From NCBI RefSeq assembly GCF_024138125.1, contig NZ_CP099993.1:1488001-1552000 (forward strand): a stretch of 64,000 bases of DNA. The letters run 5' to 3'. The stretch's first letter is position 1, and the number at the start of each line of letters is the position of its first letter. This DNA comes from Halorussus salilacus (GTDB taxonomy: Archaea; Halobacteriota; Halobacteria; Halobacteriales; Haladaptataceae). Below are positions 2,725 to 14,951 of the stretch, piece by piece. Below the pieces are notes generated by a model. That model was not told the origin of the DNA, did no database searches, and saw nothing but the letters and a program-made list of their open reading frames with translations. A program made the translations under genes and the position numbers.

Positions 2725-4842
2725 ATGGGAGATTCCGTACCACTCGACCCGCTGTTTTCGCCCGACTCCATCGCGGTCGTCGGCGCGAGTCCCGACTCGT
2801 TCTACTCGGCGAACCTCATCGACAACCTCCTCGACTACGGCTTCGACGGGGAGTTCTACCCGGTCAATCCCAGCAGGGACGAGGCGTGGGGACGGACGTG
2901 CTACGACTCCATCGAAGAGGTGCCCGAGACGGTCGACCTCGTCGTCGTGAGCGTTCCGCGCGAGTACGCCGTCGGCGTGGTCCGCGAGGCGGGCGAACTC
3001 GGCGTCCCGGCCGCGCTCGTCATCACCGCGGGGTTCGCCGAGGCCGACGAGGAAGGCGAGCGCCTCCAGTCGGAACTCGCGGCGGTCGCCGACGAGGAGG
3101 ACATCCGGGTCTGCGGACCCAACTGCATCGGACTGGCGAACGCGGTCGACAGCACCGTGCTGACGAGCACCTGCTCGCGACCGCCGGAACCGGGCTCCAT
3201 CGGACTGGTCAGCCAGTCGGGCGCGCTGGCGTTCACCACCTTCTTCGAGCGCGCGGCCGACGAGGACGTAGACTTCGCGTACCTCGCCTCGACCGGCAAC
3301 GAGGCCGACCTCACGGTGAGCGACTACGTCGAGTACATGGCCGACCAGCCCGAGGTCGAGGTCATCTGCGCGTACGTCGAGGGGCTGGCCGACCCCGACC
3401 GGTTCATGACGGTCGTCGACCGCGCGGTCCGAGAGGGGACCCCCGTGTTGACAATCAAGATCGGCCAGTCCGAGACCGCCGAGGCCGCGACGCTCTCGCA
3501 CACCGGGTCGCTGACCGGCGACGACGCCGCGTGGAACGGCGCGTTCGCCCAGACCGGCGTCGAGCGCGTCCCGGACATCCCCGACCTGCTGGGACGCGCG
3601 AGCGTCCATCAGGCGTTCGACCCGCCCGCGTCGAACCGGGTCGCAATCGCCTCGACGAGCGGCGGGCTGGCGAGCCTGCTCGCCGACATGGCGGCCGAGC
3701 GCGGCCTCGAACTCCCCGACATCGACGGCGAGACCGAGCGCGCGCTCGTCGAACACGACGACCTGCTCACCTTCGGCGAGATGCACAACCCCGCCGACAT
3801 CCGCGGCTACGGCGCCGACGTGTTGCCCGACATCGCCGAGGTGCTGTTCGCCGACGACAGCTTCGACGCCTACGTCTTCGCGCTCGGACTGTCGGCGGTC
3901 GACGAGCGGGCCGACCGCATCGTCCCCGACGTGCTGGAGGTCGCCGAGGGGACCGACGACCCGGTGGTGTTCCTGTGGACCGGCCGCAAGGAGCCCGACG
4001 AACCGACCGACGGCCTCCCCTACGAGCGCGTCCGGGAGGAGATTCCGCTGTTCTACGACCCCGAGCGCTGCATGGACGCGCTCGCCTCGCTCGTGGACTT
4101 CGGCGAGGTCAGAGACCGGGTGAGCGAAAAGCCCTCGCGCTCGGAACTCCGGTCGCGGACTCGCGTCGAGGAGCCGCCGGAACTTCCCCCGGGCGGGGTG
4201 CTGGGCTGGTCGGACGCCGAGTCGCTGCTCGACGAGTACGGCATCGAACCGGTCGAGACCCGACTCGCGACCGACGCCGACGAGGCGGCGGCCATCGCCG
4301 CCGAGGTCGGCTTCCCGGTCGCGATGAAGGTCGATTCGCCCGACCTGCCCCACCGGACCGAGGCGGGTGCGGTCGAGACGGGCATCGACGGGGAGGCGGC
4401 CGCCCGCGAGGCGTTCGAGCGAATCGTCGGGAACGCCCGCGAGTACGCGCCGGACGCCGCAATCGCGGGCGTCCTCGTCCAAGAGCAGGTCGAGGGCGGC
4501 GTCGAGGCGCTGGTCGGGGCCTCGACCGACGAGGTGTTCGGGCCGCTCGTGACCGTCGCGCCGGGCGGGACGCTGGTCGAACTGCTCGACGACCGCGCGG
4601 TCCGAGTTCCCCCGATATCCGGCGACGACGCACGGGAGGCCGTCGAGGCGACGAAGCTCGCGGCGCTCCTCGCGGAGCGCCGCGACGGCCCGCCCATCCC
4701 CGTCGAGCCGCTGGCCGACCTCCTCGAACGCGTCGGCGACCTCGTGGTCGAGAACCCCGAGGTGCGGGAGGTCGACCTCAACCCCGTCATCGTCCGGGAG
4801 GACGGCGCGGCCGTCGTTGACGTGCTCGTCAGGACCGAGTAG
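2725..4842 (+). CDS. acd: ADP-forming acetate/acyl-CoA ligase (fused alpha-beta)
   Basis: 705 aa. Converts acyl-CoA + ADP + Pi to acid + ATP + CoA, or the reverse. Domains in order: CoA-binding Rossmann fold from about residue 10 (IAVVGASPDSFYSANLI), succinyl-CoA synthetase-like domains with CGPNCIG and SQSGAL, the phosphohistidine segment TLSHTGSLTGDDAAW, then a C-terminal ATP-grasp domain (FPVAMKVDSPDLPHRTEAGAV). The alpha-beta fusion is the usual haloarchaeal arrangement. The ATG at 2725 is preferred because the protein then starts directly at the CoA-binding domain and a TATA-like box lies 28 bp upstream; the longer open frame is antisense to the aldo/keto reductase. Confidence 0.92.
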   Translation: MGDSVPLDPLFSPDSIAVVGASPDSFYSANLIDNLLDYGFDGEFYPVNPSRDEAWGRTCYDSIEEVPETVDLVVVSVPREYAVGVVREAGELGVPAALVITAGFAEADEEGERLQSELAAVADEEDIRVCGPNCIGLANAVDSTVLTSTCSRPPEPGSIGLVSQSGALAFTTFFERAADEDVDFAYLASTGNEADLTVSDYVEYMADQPEVEVICAYVEGLADPDRFMTVVDRAVREGTPVLTIKIGQSETAEAATLSHTGSLTGDDAAWNGAFAQTGVERVPDIPDLLGRASVHQAFDPPASNRVAIASTSGGLASLLADMAAERGLELPDIDGETERALVEHDDLLTFGEMHNPADIRGYGADVLPDIAEVLFADDSFDAYVFALGLSAVDERADRIVPDVLEVAEGTDDPVVFLWTGRKEPDEPTDGLPYERVREEIPLFYDPERCMDALASLVDFGEVRDRVSEKPSRSELRSRTRVEEPPELPPGGVLGWSDAESLLDEYGIEPVETRLATDADEAAAIAAEVGFPVAMKVDSPDLPHRTEAGAVETGIDGEAAAREAFERIVGNAREYAPDAAIAGVLVQEQVEGGVEALVGASTDEVFGPLVTVAPGGTLVELLDDRAVRVPPISGDDAREAVEATKLAALLAERRDGPPIPVEPLADLLERVGDLVVENPEVREVDLNPVIVREDGAAVVDVLVRTE

Positions 4843-4990: not shown

Positions 4991-5851
4991 TCAGTGGTCG
5001 CTCTCGATGCGCTCGGCGACCGCCACCACGTCGCGATACCGGTCGACGGTGGCGGTGTCGAGGAACACCCCCTCGACCAGCAGCGAGTCGGAGTCGGAGT
5101 CGTCGAACGCCCGGACCAGCCGTCGCGCCTGGGCGACGCGCTCGTCGCTCGGCGTGAACACCTCGTTGATGGTCGCGAGCTGTCCCGGGTGGATGGCGCT
5201 CATCCCCGCGTAGCCGAGTTCCCGGGCGCTCTCGGCGCGCTCGCGCAGTCCCTCCTCGTCGTCGACGTCGAGGTGGGGCGAGGCGAACGCGTCGAGGCCC
5301 CCGAGCGCGGCACAGCCGCGGATGCGGTGTTCGAGGAACTCCCGGACCCGCGCGGAGATGTCGGGCGCGCCGATCTCCCGGCAGTAGTCGGCGATGCCGA
5401 ACGACATGCCGACCACCTCCGGAGCGTCCTCGACGCGCCGAGCGATGTCGTCGGCCGCGAACACGCCCGCTGGCGACTCGAACCCGAGCCGAACCGCGGG
5501 CGGGTCGTCGGTCGCGTCGTCGAGCGCTCCGAGGAGCGTCTCGACTCCCTCGACCGACTCGACCATCGGAACCGCGACCGCGTCGACGCCCGCGGCCACC
5601 GCGGCGTCTACGTCCTCGCGCCAGTGGTCGGTGCCGACCGCGTTGATTCGCGTCCCGACCTCTGTGGCTCCGAAATCGACCTCGTCGAGGACCGCCACGA
5701 GGTTCTCGCGCGCGAGGCCCTTCCTGTCGGGCGCGACCGCGTCTTCGAGGTCGAACGTGAGCGCGTCGGCGTCGGTGTCGGCGGCCTTCTCCATCATCGA
5801 GCGCTGGTCGGCGGGCGTGAACAGCGCCGACCGTCGGACGGTGGTCGTCAT
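4991..5851 (-). CDS. HpcH/HpaI / citrate-lyase-beta-like CoA-ester lyase
   Basis: 286 aa, TIM-barrel aldolase-type family that cleaves or makes beta-hydroxyacyl-CoA esters such as malyl-CoA or citramalyl-CoA. Visible family features: RRSALFTPADQRSMMEKA at the N-terminus, LTFDLEDAVAPDRKG with metal/substrate acidic residues, RINAVGTDHW, VPMVESVEGV, GMSFGIADYC and AIHPGQL near the end. The ATG at 5851 overlaps the stop of the upstream ATPase gene by 4 nt (ATGA), so it is translationally coupled as the last gene of the ABC-transporter operon. That suggests the transported solute feeds CoA-ester metabolism, but the substrate is not identified. Confidence 0.9.
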   Translation of the reverse strand: MTTTVRRSALFTPADQRSMMEKAADTDADALTFDLEDAVAPDRKGLARENLVAVLDEVDFGATEVGTRINAVGTDHWREDVDAAVAAGVDAVAVPMVESVEGVETLLGALDDATDDPPAVRLGFESPAGVFAADDIARRVEDAPEVVGMSFGIADYCREIGAPDISARVREFLEHRIRGCAALGGLDAFASPHLDVDDEEGLRERAESARELGYAGMSAIHPGQLATINEVFTPSDERVAQARRLVRAFDDSDSDSLLVEGVFLDTATVDRYRDVVAVAERIESDH

Positions 5852-7896
5852 CGGTACTCCGCGAGCACCTCCTCGTCGACCTCGTCGACCGGGAAGTAGC
5901 AGGCCGCGCTGTGGTCGCCCCCGTCGACCGATTCCAGTTCGGGGTCGGCCGACAGACACTCCTCGCGTGCCTTCGGACACCGCGGGGCGAAGTTACACCC
6001 GTCGGGCAGGTCGACCGGACTCGGGGGCTCGCCGGGGAGCAACACCCGGGTGCGCTCGACCCGCGGGTCGGTCTTGGGCGACGCCGACAGCAGCGACGCG
6101 ACGTAGGGGTGTTTCGGCCCGGCGATGACCTCCCGGGTCGGTCCCTGCTCGACGATCTGCCCGAGGTACATTATCGCCAGCTTGTCGGCGATCTGGGTGA
6201 GGCTGGCGAGGTCGTGGGAGATGTACATCACCCCGAGGTCGCGCTCGTCGGCGAGCCGTCGCAGGATGTTGAGTATCGACGCCTTCAGCGAGACGTCGAG
6301 CATCGACGCGGGCTCGTCGCAGATGAGCAGTTCGGGCTCGACCACGAGCGCCCGGGCGATGGCGACCCGCTGGCGCTCCCCGCCGCTCAGCTGGTGGGGG
6401 TAGTTGTCGAGGTACTGCTCGGGGGGGTTGAGTCCGACGTCTTCGAGCGTCCTGTCGACCTGCTCGTCGATGCGCTCGGCCGACCATCCCTGTATCTTCA
6501 GGGGTTCGCTCACGATGGACCGGACCTTCTGGCGCGGGTTCAGCGAGTCGAACGGGTCCTGGAAGATGAACTGGAGCTTCGACCGGAACTCCTTGGGGTC
6601 CTCGTCGAGGTACTCGTCGACCGGCCGCCCCTTGAACGATATCTCGCCGTCTGTCCGGGAGTTGAGCAACGCGACGGTCTCCGCGAGGGTCGACTTGCCA
6701 CAGCCGCTCTCGCCCGCGATGCCGAGGATTTCGGACTCGCGAATCTCCAAAGACACGTCCTGGACCGCCTTGACGTAGCTGGGCTCCTTCCCGCTGAGTT
6801 GGTCGAGCAGCGGCTGGGACTGCTCGTACCACTTCGAGAGGCCCTTGGTCTCCAGTATCGTCTCGCCCAGTTCCCGCGAGTCGCGTTCCTCGACCGACAG
6901 CCCCCACGTCTCGGGGTCGGCCGCCGCCGAGCGCATCTCGGCGGCGGCGTCGGCGTGGTGACACGCCGTGTGGCTCTCGCCGACCTCGACGAGGTCGGGA
7001 TGGCTCTGCTGGCACGCCTCGGTCGCGAACGGACACCGCCCCGCGAACACGCACGAGGCGGGGTCGTCGTCGAGGACCGGCGACGACCCCGGAATCGTGA
7101 TGGCGTACTCGTCGAGCTTCTCGATGTCGGGAAACGAGTTCTTCAGCCCCATCGTGTAGGGGTTCGACGGTTCGGCGAGCACCTCGTCGGTGGGGCCCTG
7201 CTCCATCACCTTGCCGCCGTAGAGGACCGATATCTCGTCACTGGTCTCGGCCACGACGCCGATCTCGTGGGTGATGAGGAGCAGGGAGCTGTCGACCTGC
7301 TCCTGAATCTCGAGCATCTTGTCGATGATCTTGTCCTGAACGATGACGTCGAGGCCGGTCGTCGGCTCGTCGGCGATGATGAGGTCGGGTTCGAGCGCGA
7401 GCGCCATCGCGATGGTCACCCGCTGGCGCATCCCGCCCGAGAACTGGTGGGGGTAGTCGTCGATGCGGTCGGTCTCCAGCCCGACCATCTCGAAGACCTC
7501 CCGCGTTCGGTCGCGGGCCTGAGACTTCGAGACGTCGCGGTGTTTCCGGATGGCCTGCACGATCTGGGCCCCGACCGACATCACGGGGTCGAGCGAGTCC
7601 ATGGCGCTCTGGGGGATGTAGGCGATCTCCTCCCAGCGGAGCTGTCGGTACTCCTCGTCCGAGAGTTCGAGGAGGTTCTCGCCCTTGAACCGTATCTCGC
7701 CGCGCTCGATTCTGGCGTTGTCGTCCAACAGTCCGAGGACCGACAGCGCCAGCGTGGACTTGCCACAGCCGCTCTCGCCGACCAGCCCGTAGTTGATTCC
7801 GGCGTCCATCGAGAGCGAGACGTCGTTGACCGCGTGGACCGCACTGTCCTCCGTTTCGTACGTGATCTTCAGATCCTCGATTTCCAGTAGCGTCAT
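5848..7896 (-). CDS. Fused dipeptide/oligopeptide-type ABC transporter ATPase (DppD-DppF fusion)
   Basis: 682 aa, twice the usual ATPase length. Two complete nucleotide-binding domains: first with Walker A GESGCGKST at about 40-48, signature QFSGGMRQRV and DEPTTGLDVIVQ; second with another GESGCGKST, signature HQLSGGERQRVAIARAL and DEPASMLDVSLKA. Each half ends with the Cys-rich oligopeptide-type tail (CVFAGRCPFATEAC and CNFAPRCPKAREEC) that may hold an Fe-S cluster. Powers import through the two permeases encoded upstream. ATG at 7896 overlaps the permease stop by 4 nt; its own stop overlaps the CoA-lyase start. Confidence 0.95.
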   Translation of the reverse strand: MTLLEIEDLKITYETEDSAVHAVNDVSLSMDAGINYGLVGESGCGKSTLALSVLGLLDDNARIERGEIRFKGENLLELSDEEYRQLRWEEIAYIPQSAMDSLDPVMSVGAQIVQAIRKHRDVSKSQARDRTREVFEMVGLETDRIDDYPHQFSGGMRQRVTIAMALALEPDLIIADEPTTGLDVIVQDKIIDKMLEIQEQVDSSLLLITHEIGVVAETSDEISVLYGGKVMEQGPTDEVLAEPSNPYTMGLKNSFPDIEKLDEYAITIPGSSPVLDDDPASCVFAGRCPFATEACQQSHPDLVEVGESHTACHHADAAAEMRSAAADPETWGLSVEERDSRELGETILETKGLSKWYEQSQPLLDQLSGKEPSYVKAVQDVSLEIRESEILGIAGESGCGKSTLAETVALLNSRTDGEISFKGRPVDEYLDEDPKEFRSKLQFIFQDPFDSLNPRQKVRSIVSEPLKIQGWSAERIDEQVDRTLEDVGLNPPEQYLDNYPHQLSGGERQRVAIARALVVEPELLICDEPASMLDVSLKASILNILRRLADERDLGVMYISHDLASLTQIADKLAIMYLGQIVEQGPTREVIAGPKHPYVASLLSASPKTDPRVERTRVLLPGEPPSPVDLPDGCNFAPRCPKAREECLSADPELESVDGGDHSAACYFPVDEVDEEVLAEYR

Positions 7897-8807
7897 TGAT
7901 CGCCCTCCGTCTGAATCTCGGGGTTGATTATCTCTTCGAGCGACCGGCCCACCAGGAACACCGACGTCGTGATGGCCGAGATACCGATGGCGGGCGGCAG
8001 GACCCACCACCACGCGTCACGCATGTCACCCGACTCGAACACCTCCTGAAGCATCGTGCCCCAGCTCGTGGTCGTCGGGTCGCCGAATCCGAGGAACGAC
8101 AGCGACGCCTCGACAGCGATGGACCACGAGACCGCGTAGGCGGTGTACAGGAAGCCGACCGCCAGCACGTTCGGCGCGACGTGGTAGAACATCGTCCGGA
8201 GGTGGCCCGCGCCGCTGGCGCGGGCCGACCGCACGAACGTCCGGTTCTTCACCGACATGACCTCCGACCGGATGACCCTCGCGGGCATCTTCCAGAGGAA
8301 CGTCACGAGCACCAGCACGATTATCGGGGTGCTCGGCTGGACGAACGTCAACACGAGCAACGCCATCGGCAACAGCGGGAGCGCGAACGTCAGGTCGGTC
8401 AGCCGCATCAACACCTCGTCGACCCGGCCGCCGAAGTAGCCGCTCACCAGCCCCACGAGGAAGCCGACGATTCCGGTCCCGATACCGCCGAACAGGCCGA
8501 CGAGGAACGTCGGCCGCGCGCCCGCGAGGAACTGGCTGAACACGTCCTTGCCGAACGCGGTGGTCCCCATGAACGCCTCCTCGCTGGGTGCCTCGGTCCG
8601 GAGCGGCTGATTGTCCTCGCCCCGGAGCGTGTCCCTGATGGGGTCGTGGGGAGCGAGGGCCGGTCCTAGGATGCCCAGCGTCACGAACAGCACGATGACG
8701 ACGAGTCCGGCCGCCGCCCACCGGTCCTTGACGATGACGCCGAGGACGTTTTTTGCCTTCCCGCCGAGTTCGCTGACCCGCTCGGTCGAGAGCGATTCGA
8801 CGCTCAT
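7893..8807 (-). CDS. ABC transporter permease, DppC-like
   Basis: 304 aa inner membrane subunit of a peptide/nickel-type importer. An N-terminal membrane helix (AAAGLVVIVLFVTLGILGPA) and further helices precede the ATPase-coupling EAA-type loop around SARASGAGHLRTMFYHVAPN. It overlaps the downstream ATPase by 4 nt and the upstream permease by 1 nt, so it is co-translated with both. Confidence 0.93.
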   Translation of the reverse strand: MSVESLSTERVSELGGKAKNVLGVIVKDRWAAAGLVVIVLFVTLGILGPALAPHDPIRDTLRGEDNQPLRTEAPSEEAFMGTTAFGKDVFSQFLAGARPTFLVGLFGGIGTGIVGFLVGLVSGYFGGRVDEVLMRLTDLTFALPLLPMALLVLTFVQPSTPIIVLVLVTFLWKMPARVIRSEVMSVKNRTFVRSARASGAGHLRTMFYHVAPNVLAVGFLYTAYAVSWSIAVEASLSFLGFGDPTTTSWGTMLQEVFESGDMRDAWWWVLPPAIGISAITTSVFLVGRSLEEIINPEIQTEGDQ

Positions 8808-9869: not shown

Positions 9870-11822
9870 TCAGGAGAAGTCGTCCTGTTCGAGTTCCTCT
9901 CGGGTGGCGTGACCGTCCTCCAGTCGGTCCATGAACGCGTCCCACGCGTCGCCCTCGGGCCAGACGAGCATGTCCTCGTCGTCCCACGTATAGCCCGCCT
10001 TCTCGAGCATCTCCCTGCCGAGTTCGGGGTCGTACTCGTAGTCGTCGGGCTCGTAGTACCAGTCCTCGACCAGCGGCGAAATGAGGTTGTTGCCGGGGGT
10101 GACCGTCGCGTTCCCGTCGAGGACGTCGTCGGTGAACCCCTGCTTGTTGATGGAGTGAGCGACCGCCTTTCGAATCACCTTGTCGCGCCAGACCGGCACG
10201 ATGTGGTTGATGTGAACGTCCAGCGGCGCGAAGTTCTCCGAGACCTGCTTGTCGATGCCGTCGTTCTGCGCGAGTTCGTCGGCCTGCTCGTTGGTGAGGA
10301 TGGAGTCGACGGCGTCGATGTCGCCGCCCTCCAGCGCGCCGAGCAGGGCGTCGGTGTTGCCGACGTTCGACCAGACGATGCCGTCGACGCCCTCGCCCGG
10401 TTCGAAGTACTCGCCGAGTATCTCCTCGCGCTCGTCCTCGTCCCACATCCAGTGGTCCTCGAACTTCTCGACCTCCATGCGCGAGCCCTGGTCCCAGCTA
10501 GCGAACTGGAAGGGGCCGGTCCCGACCGGCTCCTCGGGGTTGTGATTCGCGGGGTCGTCGACGTCCTCCCACTTGTGCTTCGGGATGATGGCGCTCATCA
10601 CGACCCGCTGGGTCATGAACGAGGCGTCGGGACCGTCGAGGTTGAACCTGACCCGCCCGCCGAGGCCCTCCTCGACGACCTCGACGCTGTCGATGGGGTC
10701 GGTGAACACCGCCATGTCCGGCGCGTCGTACTCCTGGAACAGTTCGACCGAGAACTTGACGTCCTCGGGCGTGAAGTCCTCGCCGTCGTGCCACGTCGTC
10801 TCGCGGAGGTCCATCTCGATGGTGGTGTCGTCGACGATCTCGTGGTCGGTCGCGAGCGCGGGTACGACTTCGAGTTGCGGCGAGGCGTCGTACAGTCCGT
10901 CGTAGATGACGGTCATACGCTTCGCGGCTTCTCCGCCCGCCGACCACGGGAGGTTCAGGCCGTTCATCTCGGTGGTCACGCCCTTGACCCATGTGGTGTC
11001 GTCGCCCTGGGGCTGGAGGTTGACGTGGGTCCAGATGAACGAGTCGCGGTTCGTCCCGTTGCCCGGCGTCGGGACGTACCCCGACCAGTTGGCCGTGTTG
11101 GCGGCCTGAATGACGTCGGGGAAGTTGATGGAGTAGCAGAAGACGTCCTCGCTCATGATCTCCTGGAGTTCGTGGACGGTCTCCCGGCGAGCGTCCTGGT
11201 CTTCGACCTCCGCGCTCTCCTCGTCGATGAGGTCTCGGACCTCCTCGTCGTAGTAGTTCATGTAGTTCCCGGAGTCCTCCGGATGCATCCGGAGCAGGAA
11301 CGCGTTCGGGTCGAGCCCCCGCTGGGGGTCCGGCCCGTGGGTGTTCATCGAGATGGGGACGATGTGGCCGGTGTCGGCGGGCCAGTACTCGTCGTACAGC
11401 CGATTGAGCGGCACGTCGTCCATCTCGGTCGGGATGCCGAGTTCCATGAGACTGGACTCGATCATCACCGCGTGTTCCTCCATCCACGGCTCCTCCTCGC
11501 TGGAGTAGTTGATGGTGACCGGGTCCAGCGTCTGGCCCTCGGTCGCCGTGTAGTCGACCGGGACGTTGTCGTTGTTCTTCGTCTCTACGGGCCAGTCCTC
11601 CCAGAACTGGGTCTCGACCGACTCGGCGTCCTCGTCGGCCTCGCCGCTTCCGTTTCCACCGCCACCGAACATCCCGCTACAGCCCGCGATACCGGCCATC
11701 CCGGCGACCGCGGAGGCACTGATAAACCGTCGCCGGTTCAGTCCCGTGTGGTTCGAATGAGAACGTGACTCTCGGCCGTCATTACCTGACATGGTTGGCG
11801 AACGCATGGTAGTAGTTTCCAA
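9870..11822 (-). CDS. Solute-binding lipoprotein of the Dpp-type ABC importer, circularly permuted SBP_bac_5 domain
   Basis: 650 aa. N-terminal Tat-lipoprotein signal: twin arginines in LNRRRFISA at 29-35, hydrophobic stretch, then GIAGC with the lipid-anchored Cys at 48. The order of the binding domain is unusual. Residues about 95-265 (PVTINYSSEEEPWMEEHAVM to SINFPDVIQAANTANWSGY) resemble the part that normally forms the C-terminal end of SBP_bac_5. The usual N-terminal start (YDGL.. at 307, TWHDGEDFTPEDVKF at 343-357, GTGPFQF at 434) follows, and the protein ends at the DPELGREMLEKAGY segment that normally precedes the C-terminal part. Starts at 11822, 11807 and 11792 are all possible; the last gives a shorter Tat n-region. 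Confidence 0.9.
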   Translation of the reverse strand: METTTMRSPTMSGNDGRESRSHSNHTGLNRRRFISASAVAGMAGIAGCSGMFGGGGNGSGEADEDAESVETQFWEDWPVETKNNDNVPVDYTATEGQTLDPVTINYSSEEEPWMEEHAVMIESSLMELGIPTEMDDVPLNRLYDEYWPADTGHIVPISMNTHGPDPQRGLDPNAFLLRMHPEDSGNYMNYYDEEVRDLIDEESAEVEDQDARRETVHELQEIMSEDVFCYSINFPDVIQAANTANWSGYVPTPGNGTNRDSFIWTHVNLQPQGDDTTWVKGVTTEMNGLNLPWSAGGEAAKRMTVIYDGLYDASPQLEVVPALATDHEIVDDTTIEMDLRETTWHDGEDFTPEDVKFSVELFQEYDAPDMAVFTDPIDSVEVVEEGLGGRVRFNLDGPDASFMTQRVVMSAIIPKHKWEDVDDPANHNPEEPVGTGPFQFASWDQGSRMEVEKFEDHWMWDEDEREEILGEYFEPGEGVDGIVWSNVGNTDALLGALEGGDIDAVDSILTNEQADELAQNDGIDKQVSENFAPLDVHINHIVPVWRDKVIRKAVAHSINKQGFTDDVLDGNATVTPGNNLISPLVEDWYYEPDDYEYDPELGREMLEKAGYTWDDEDMLVWPEGDAWDAFMDRLEDGHATREELEQDDFS

Positions 11823-12833: not shown

Positions 12834-14042
12834 TTATGCACTTCCATCTGCTGAGACCGTTATATTCTTGTCGTCTTTAGTTACCATGACGGATTCAACG
12901 AACGTCTCGTTCCCGGTGACTACTGCGACTGTCCGTTCATCGATGGTAGATAGCCGATAGCGATCATTGTCAACGGTCCAGCCGTCAGCGGTCTTATTCC
13001 CCCGAGCGTCAAGGTAGTCGGCAAACGCGCTCTCGAACCCATCGGCGTCAGTCTCGGTGTCCCAGCGTAGCACCCAGACGTATCCCTCGGTGTCGCCCGT
13101 GACGGTGAGGAGTCGGTCGTTGCCCCAGCCAGCCGCGGCGTCAGCGGCACGGTCCTCGCTCAGTTCAACGCCAAGGACGGTCCGAATGAACAGTTCGCCC
13201 TGTCGCTCCATCGTGGCCGGCGTGGTCCAGTCCCTAGGCGTCTTGTCGACGACCGTGAGGTTTCTTGGTTGGTCGGTACTCTCGGGGTGGAGCACCTGTT
13301 CGGTCGTATTAGGTAAGCGGAGATCCGGATCAAGGAAATCGCTCGGCGAGTCGAGCGTTTCGGCGAAGTACTCGCCACCGAAGCAGTACGACTGCTGCCA
13401 GTTTCGGGCGTACGGTGAGCCATTCCGGTAGCGTTCACACCGGCGTTCAATCGACGAGAACCCGAGGAATTCCCGCGTGTAGGTGTCCTCAATGTAGACG
13501 GCTCCGCCCTCGATTACGCTCCCGTGTGCGGCACCGTGGGGTGCTCGTTCATTCAGCCCGATCCGCGATTGGATAGCGTGGGCAAACTCGTGGACAAGTA
13601 TGCGCTCAACGTTGTTTCTGGATCCGTTCCGGGGGAAGAATACTACCCGATCCTCATTCGGGAGGTACTGCCCACCGGCTGTCCCATCCGTGTAGGAATC
13701 GGCACCTTCTCCGAGGCCGAGGTGGGCCGCCAGCGGACGCGCCATTGGCTCTCCACTCCGTTGCTGAACTATCACGGATGGCGGCTCGTACGTTTCTCCG
13801 AACAACGACTCAAGGCGCTCCCAGACAAGCGAGGCGTTCACCGCGAGGTCACCATAGACGGAGACTCGATTGTCCGTGGTAGCTGTCCGCTCGGGCGTCG
13901 ACGAATTCGCGTTCGTCGTCGTCGACGCTGTTTCCGGTGTCGCAGTCGGGGATTCTGAGCCACCGAACGCGCCGCAACCAGCCAATACTGTTGCGGAAAC
14001 CACTACCAATGCCGCCAGTACTTGTCGATTCATCGTTATCAC
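12834..14042 (-). CDS. Hvo_1808-type surface lipoprotein with HExxH metalloprotease-like motif
   Basis: 402 aa. Sec/Tat-type lipoprotein signal with lipobox VLAGC, Cys at about 23, followed by a Thr/Ser-rich linker (25-60) as in membrane-tethered halophile proteins. Middle contains ILVHEFAHAIQSR (HExxH at 151-155) and further on GSVIEGGAVYIE, a plausible third metal ligand, suggesting a zinc peptidase-like fold. Resembles haloarchaeal 'Hvo_1808 family' proteins; no function is established. Starts at 14042 or 14033; a TATA-like tataat at 14065-14070 fits. The C-terminus ends right at the transposase relic and may have been trimmed. Confidence 0.75.
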   Translation of the reverse strand: MITMNRQVLAALVVVSATVLAGCGAFGGSESPTATPETASTTTNANSSTPERTATTDNRVSVYGDLAVNASLVWERLESLFGETYEPPSVIVQQRSGEPMARPLAAHLGLGEGADSYTDGTAGGQYLPNEDRVVFFPRNGSRNNVERILVHEFAHAIQSRIGLNERAPHGAAHGSVIEGGAVYIEDTYTREFLGFSSIERRCERYRNGSPYARNWQQSYCFGGEYFAETLDSPSDFLDPDLRLPNTTEQVLHPESTDQPRNLTVVDKTPRDWTTPATMERQGELFIRTVLGVELSEDRAADAAAGWGNDRLLTVTGDTEGYVWVLRWDTETDADGFESAFADYLDARGNKTADGWTVDNDRYRLSTIDERTVAVVTGNETFVESVMVTKDDKNITVSADGSA

Positions 14043-14270: not shown

Positions 14271-14951
14271 CTAACAGGGGCTAGGATCATCTATGCTACA
14301 CTCTTGACAGGTTTGGTCAGTTTGGTGTTCAACACAGCCGGAGGGGCAGTCATAAACCTCGTAAATATAGCAGATTGTGTCGCCACCACCGGCATATCCT
14401 CCGTAACAGGTTTCATAATTTGTATAGCAATCAGCAGTCCCGTGAGCAGTTGTCCCGACACTATCATCTGATTCAGAGCCAGATTGTAGGTCATCAGACG
14501 TTATAATCTGTGGTCCATCTTCTCTCGACACCTTACCATGTGAGCTCTTTTCGCTAGGTTCTACCTGAATTGTGACTAATTCATTTACCTCAATCCTCAG
14601 AAGTGCGCGCCAACTATCTCCGTTAGGCACAACAAGAGTATCTGTCTTCTCAGATTCAGTAGGGTCTTCGACTATTTCGCTCACATCTGTTGTCGAAATA
14701 TCGCCTCGAGAGTGTAGCTCATCAACGACGCCTGATGCATGCGTTTGCACAGCCTCGACGTAGCTTTCTTTAGAGCTGTAACTCTCATAGAGATCTCGCG
14801 CTTCTTGGTCAACTTCGATCTCAGAAGCGGCGACAGACTGCCCAGTTGCCCCGATTAGTCCTGCAACCGCTCCGGCACCCATCTTAGCTAAGACAGACCG
14901 TCGCCGAATTTTGCTATCCATGCTTGAATTACCTTCATTCATCTTTGCCAT
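14271..14951 (-). CDS. Tat-exported protein with Cys-rich C-terminal peptide (halocin-precursor-like candidate)
   Basis: 226 aa. Twin-arginine signal (KIRRRSVLAKMGAGAVAGL, residues 14-32) ending about AAS 41-43. A charged, Ser/Thr-rich middle (44-170) follows, then a compact tail of about 55 residues with eight Cys at 175, 182, 194, 202, 206, 215, 218 and 226 (the last residue). Layout (Tat signal, propeptide-like middle, small disulfide-rich C-terminal module) recalls halocin C8-type precursors, but the Cys pattern is not one I can match to HalC8. AT-rich codon use differs from core genes. Start at 14951 is supported by a TATA-like box ~30 bp upstream. Function is inferred only. Confidence 0.7.
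   Translation of the reverse strand: MAKMNEGNSSMDSKIRRRSVLAKMGAGAVAGLIGATGQSVAASEIEVDQEARDLYESYSSKESYVEAVQTHASGVVDELHSRGDISTTDVSEIVEDPTESEKTDTLVVPNGDSWRALLRIEVNELVTIQVEPSEKSSHGKVSREDGPQIITSDDLQSGSESDDSVGTTAHGTADCYTNYETCYGGYAGGGDTICYIYEVYDCPSGCVEHQTDQTCQECSIDDPSPC

Follow-up and report, generated by a model that had tools for sequence, protein, structure and literature searches.

Organization of the locus

The DNA analysed, hereafter called the window, was a stretch of 64,000 nucleotides from Halorussus salilacus. On its minus strand, the open reading frame 9870-11822 encodes a 650-aa SBP_bac_5 solute-binding protein, and the genes of its ABC importer lie next to it. The features of the locus are given below, with residue numbers referring to the 650-aa protein.

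9870-11822, minus strand: gene of the swapped-order, very probably circularly permuted, SBP_bac_5 (cluster C) Tat-lipoprotein; 650 codons
11679-11741, minus strand: Tat signal and lipobox (NRRRFISASAVAGMAGIAGC), residues ~28-48; read from the sequence
11541-11678, minus strand: linker (residues 49-94) between the lipid-anchor Cys and the SBP block that comes first
11064-11540, minus strand: canonical C-terminal half, placed first (profile 371-520), residues 95-253; E 3.6e-14
11013-11063, minus strand: new linker joining the former C- and N-termini, residues 254-270; from profile limits and low AlphaFold confidence
9972-11012, minus strand: canonical N-terminal part, placed second (profile 43-367), residues 271-617; E 1.1e-58
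9870-9971, minus strand: subfamily-specific C-terminal tail, residues 618-650, and stop codon
8807-9793, minus strand: cognate permease 1, OppB/DppB type; Pfam BPD_transp_1, synteny
7893-8807, minus strand: cognate permease 2, OppC/DppC type; Pfam BPD_transp_1 and OppC_N, synteny
5848-7896, minus strand: fused double ATPase, DppD-DppF type; two ABC_tran and two oligo_HPY matches, synteny
4991-5851, minus strand: HpcH/HpaI-type CoA-ester lyase, with which the apparent operon ends; Pfam
2767-4842, plus strand: acetate--CoA ligase (ADP-forming) type gene, convergent; Pfam

The TTG start of the 9870-11822 frame is the one giving the longest reading, and in-frame ATGs are present as codons 6 and 11; the start of the double ATPase is an in-frame ATG picked by eye. 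The original prediction, made from the sequence of the gene, had described an intact Tat-lipobox and normal partner permease and ATPase genes. The lipobox was indeed seen in the sequence, the Pfam TAT_signal match to residues 28-45 being weak and below cut-off. The partner genes were found to be normal by Pfam and by synteny, the binding protein, both permeases and the double ATPase being found together in 40 of the 41 named loci, the remaining one being cut by a contig end. The linker that follows the anchor cysteine is conserved in the subfamily from about residue 66 on, with W77 and Y91 invariant. The C-terminal tail is also conserved and nearly always ends in ..LxQxDFS; part of it is predicted to be ordered in the AlphaFold model, with one helix at 625-636.

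The two halves of the binding protein are in swapped order

With Pfam, residues 318-619 were aligned to positions 1-286 of the 368 positions of SBP_bac_5 (PF00496; 185.8 bits, gathering score 32.4), and the protein ends soon after. A broad profile was built from 37 normal-order family-5 (cluster C) proteins, with no permuted one among them. This profile matched the protein in two blocks, positions 371-520 lying ahead of positions 43-367 (residue limits and E-values listed above), so that both halves of the fold are present but not in the canonical N-to-C order. The same profile detected no second C-terminal half in the gene, and residues 618-650 hold no lobe. Alignments obtained with phmmer against the PDB gave two blocks in swapped order for both 5u4o (query 305-612 to chain 74-360, query 183-253 to chain 441-509) and 5isu (query 315-611 to chain 54-336, query 168-245 to chain 402-478), among the best matches listed. 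The open reading frame 9870-11822 was thus confirmed as coding for a swapped-order SBP. The circular permutation that had been proposed for it, with blocks at 95-265 and 290-650, is in agreement with the profile limits of 95-253 and 271-617: the order is not collinear, and residues 95-253 are a canonical half with no other copy in the gene rather than an unrelated domain accompanied by a full C-terminal lobe elsewhere.

A small profile made of four E. coli proteins (DppA, OppA, GsiB and NikA) split the nine SBP_bac_5 genes of the genome into five normal and four swapped ones, and the normal-order controls (the same E. coli proteins and proteins from other archaea) gave single collinear matches. 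When the 650-aa protein was rotated in silico, its blocks fused into one match to positions 50-500 of the E. coli profile, with a best-domain score rising from 97 to 102 bits only. Among the rotated paralogues, the score of L075 went from 101 to 143 and that of L077 from 78 to 96, L076 showing no rise; three canonical controls scored best unrotated. As the gain of the 650-aa protein is weak, the argument rests on the order of the blocks and on the relatives. In the other permuted proteins the first block is the canonical C-terminal half, the lowest E-values being about 1e-12 or 1e-13. The E-values, together with dozens of orthologues having an identical block order, exclude chance.

Break point and predicted structure

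In the permuted relatives, the break nearly always follows the 'EAGY' helix of the C-terminal lobe. In a set of 117 permuted sequences, which is redundant since some were fetched repeatedly under different loci, the first block starts at a median profile position of 381 and never before 358, and the end of the second block has its median at position 368, with one outlier at 186. On the alignment to the 37-protein profile, the break corresponds to residues ~369-377 of the DppA precursor, after 'LLKEAGLEKG', a region that we take, from the standard descriptions of OppA and DppA, to be in the C-terminal lobe.

The AlphaFold prediction (35 sequences) yielded a moderate model, with a mean pLDDT of 70.8 and a pTM of 0.66; confidence was low in the first 64 residues, in the junction region (247-289) and in parts of 295-320. 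A Foldseek search of the PDB placed cluster C proteins first, with partial matches and sequential TM scores of at most 0.48 among the matches listed. Such low sequential scores would be expected of a permuted fold, but a poor model would give them likewise. Among the best 60 PDB chains, none gave a collinear match to the permuted profile.

Distribution of the permuted proteins

Matches at E≤1e-40 were obtained in 71 of 293 genomes of the same taxonomic order. About 50 places hold close relatives, which are 40-62% identical (the gene itself excepted), nearly all full length and collinear with the gene; the remaining matches of this search belong to a shorter permuted subfamily. The scan of named genomes returned 41 loci, Halobacteria without exception. 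In the relatives examined, the C-terminal half leads; the exceptions are L003 and L005, two normal-order paralogues of the same genome which surface as weak partial matches. Three more permuted SBP genes were located in this genome: L006 (G000:C1:1248316-1249680), L004 (G000:C1:1273903-1275288), whose open frame carries about 280 residues ahead of the first SBP block, and L002 (G000:C2:73494-75182).

At the level of the phylum (Halobacteriota, E≤1e-35), no matches beyond the same taxonomic order were found. A restriction to Halobacteriota was nevertheless ruled out by the alphaproteobacterial members revealed by tblastn of plasmid records, the only records through which bacterial spread was assessed. 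A check against the E. coli profile established the permuted order for Roseomonas, Nitratireductor, Maritalea, Ketogulonicigenium and Neorhizobium, and Microvirga gave a full-length match in one piece. The matches in Cytobacillus, Meiothermus, Paroceanicella, Rhizobium sp. 11515TR and one Roseomonas (L159) turned out to be in normal order, as did the incomplete match in G317, a more distant archaeon. The search for relatives of the same order, which had been proposed with the original prediction, thus returned many haloarchaea and alphaproteobacteria. Judged by these homologues, the permuted protein is one member of a widespread clade and not an isolated oddity of one gene, and the recurrence of the swap at the same point across many haloarchaea and some bacteria argues for an old, working and apparently undescribed branch of the family.

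Phylogenetic analysis and alternative explanations

Quick trees were computed with SH-aLRT branch support (no bootstrap) from permuted sequences that had been rotated in silico and aligned to the normal profile, together with normal-order bacterial and archaeal proteins. In the tree containing all rows, L004 and L006 group with the normal-order, long-branched L005 (support 88), a grouping that requires the order to have changed twice. The permutation could then have occurred more than once, the L004/L006-type haloarchaeal proteins representing a separate event. We regard this as improbable, for L005 is a long branch and, once the three longest rows are removed, a single branch separates all 18 permuted rows from the others (SH-aLRT 99); moreover, L004 and L006 are broken at the same place as the other permuted proteins. 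A single permuted clade was not rejected by the AU test (p 0.47), which falls short of proof. Without the three long rows, the same split between permuted and normal proteins was recovered from the N-part alone (support 96) and, with weak support (66), from the C-part alone. The two trees agree, hence the split is independent of the rotated junction, suggesting that the permuted clade has a single origin. The agreement also bears on the idea that two binding proteins were fused, one contributing its C-terminal half and the other, placed behind it, its N-terminal part, giving a chimera of two ancestors. The unequal similarity of the two halves to canonical profiles (E 3.6e-14 versus 1.1e-58) would fit such a fusion, and the authors of the TpMglB-2 study raised the same doubt for their own protein (PMC4990184). 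Each half taken separately nevertheless parts the permuted from the normal proteins in the same way, the C-part with the weak support given above, and a fusion seems unlikely to us.

An ordinary collinear SBP preceded by an unrelated extra N-terminal domain and ending in a truncated C-terminal lobe is what Pfam alone would evoke, as its best match is a single stretch, profile 1-286, in the last part of the protein. This reading is hardly credible: residues 95-253 match the canonical C-terminal half, which rules out an unrelated domain, and Pfam itself places SBP_bac_5 positions 287-367 upstream in several permuted relatives. An assembly or annotation artefact has a negligible probability, the order and the neighbours recurring in dozens of independent genomes, complete plasmids included. 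The gene very probably encodes a cluster C (SBP_bac_5) solute-binding protein that is a genuine circular permutant, as had been proposed. At the sequence level, the swapped order, the shared break, the intact Tat-lipobox, the normal cognate permeases and ATPase and the conservation in many genomes are established.

Members from alphaproteobacteria and from haloarchaea are intermingled in the trees, a pattern pointing to gene transfer. The cognate permeases cluster as well (support 99), with one normal-order system, that of L005, inside. L005 (G000:C4:33973-34836) is a normal-order SBP which lies beside or inside the permuted clade, as does its permease; it may be the nearest normal-order relative, or its position may be a long-branch effect.

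Neighbouring genes and candidate substrates

The HpcH/HpaI CoA-ester lyase gene after the transporter and the convergent CoA-ligase gene are found in the window and in close relatives. At L101, L102, L114 and L119, the SBP and the permeases are separated by genes for an HpcH-type lyase and a CaiB/BaiF-like CoA-transferase, the latter recognized in the sequence by eye; the arrangement at L102:7994-10109 hints at a CoA-activated substrate. Near other permuted subfamilies, genes for M20 or M28 peptidases (the M20-type gene at L002 was named by eye), a creatininase-family protein or hydantoinase/oxoprolinase were observed. These neighbours suggest amides, N-acyl amino acids or organic acids as much as peptides.

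In DppA, the dipeptide ends are contacted by R383 and D436 (PMC12136057). On a loop alignment that is uncertain, R383 is not conserved in the aligned permuted proteins and corresponds to S108 of the 650-aa protein, which lacks this DppA-type contact, and D436 is aligned to D165. The charged pair E41-R42 of the DppB scoop loop is absent from the cognate permeases examined, an absence that is not specific because GsiC lacks the pair too. The label 'peptide-binding' of the original prediction did not fare well: besides R383 not being conserved on this alignment, some close operons carry a CoA-ester lyase with a CoA ligase or CoA-transferase, and the adjoining CoA-ligase and CoA-ester-lyase genes argue against a plain label of this kind. 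A CoA-activated small organic acid or amide is as likely a candidate substrate as a peptide, and the annotation 'peptide' may be wrong for some permuted proteins.

Comparison with known binding proteins

The permuted protein is homologous over both halves to DppA, OppA, NikA, GsiB and AppA (cluster C, PF00496), and it shares with the DppA/OppA-type systems an export signal and the same kind of operon, with two permeases and two ATPase domains. It differs from this family in its swapped halves and in new termini located in the C-terminal lobe, and from DppA in that the dipeptide contact R383 is, on the alignment used, not conserved. As the homology covers both halves but the defining order fails, it was filed as a permuted variant of SBP_bac_5.

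Descriptions of entire ABC-importer binding proteins that are naturally circularly permuted are very rare, and no report of a permuted family-5 (cluster C) protein was found in the open-access literature. The nearest precedent, and the sole parallel found there, is TpMglB-2 (Tp0684), a lipid-tethered natural circular permutant of ABC-importer type for which the authors proposed a permuted subclass, 'Cluster Bc' (PMC4990184). TpMglB-2 is a sugar-binding cluster B protein of treponemes and Gram-positives in which strands of the N-terminal lobe are permuted (PMC4990184), whereas the 9870-11822 protein is of cluster C, is broken in the C-terminal lobe and occurs in haloarchaea and alphaproteobacteria. 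It does not have the permuted order of the cluster B fold and, being homologous to cluster C, is analogous to 'Cluster Bc' rather than a member of it. An adaptation to tethering was put forward by the same authors as a possible reason for permutation (PMC4990184). In the alphaproteobacterial proteins that were looked at, no lipobox could be made out by eye in the signal peptide; tethering therefore cannot account for the permuted clade as a whole and is unsupported as a general cause of the permutation.

Proposed mechanism

The old N- and C-termini would have been joined via a short linker, and new termini would have been opened in the loop following the 'LLxEAGY' helix of the C-terminal lobe. 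The trees support a single origin, after which the gene, accompanied by a permease clade of its own, would have spread between Halobacteria and Alphaproteobacteria. The protein is expected to adopt the normal bilobed cluster C fold, to close on its ligand like a Venus flytrap and to deliver it to the adjacent permease and ATPase. Physically, the main change would be that the N-terminus is attached to the C-terminal lobe rather than to the N-terminal one; the lipid anchor of the haloarchaeal proteins would thus be carried by the C-terminal lobe through a partly conserved linker of ~45 residues. More tentatively, one ancient permutation could have founded a cluster C importer class of its own ('Cluster Cc'), held or docked by the C-terminal lobe, with co-evolved permeases and a changed docking or release step, a proposal that we consider possible but rather doubtful.

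The permuted proteins sit in the family of the models DppA and OppA, are common in haloarchaea and also exist in bacteria. The effects of moving the termini on folding, hinge, anchor and docking could hence be studied against normal-order paralogues of the same cell. As these proteins cut the PF00496 model at ~286, domain annotation and structure templates misread them.

Other genes in the window

Two further minus-strand genes were noted. The first, at 12834-14042, encodes a 402-aa lipoprotein with a HEFAH zinc-protease motif, for which all Pfam matches to metallopeptidase families were sub-threshold. The second, at 14271-14951, encodes a secreted protein of 226 aa that is of Tat type and cysteine-rich at its C-terminus (..CYTNYETCYGGYAGGGDTICYIYEVYDCPSGCVEHQTDQTCQECSIDDPSPC); Pfam gave no match to it, and its layout is reminiscent of secreted halocin-like precursors.
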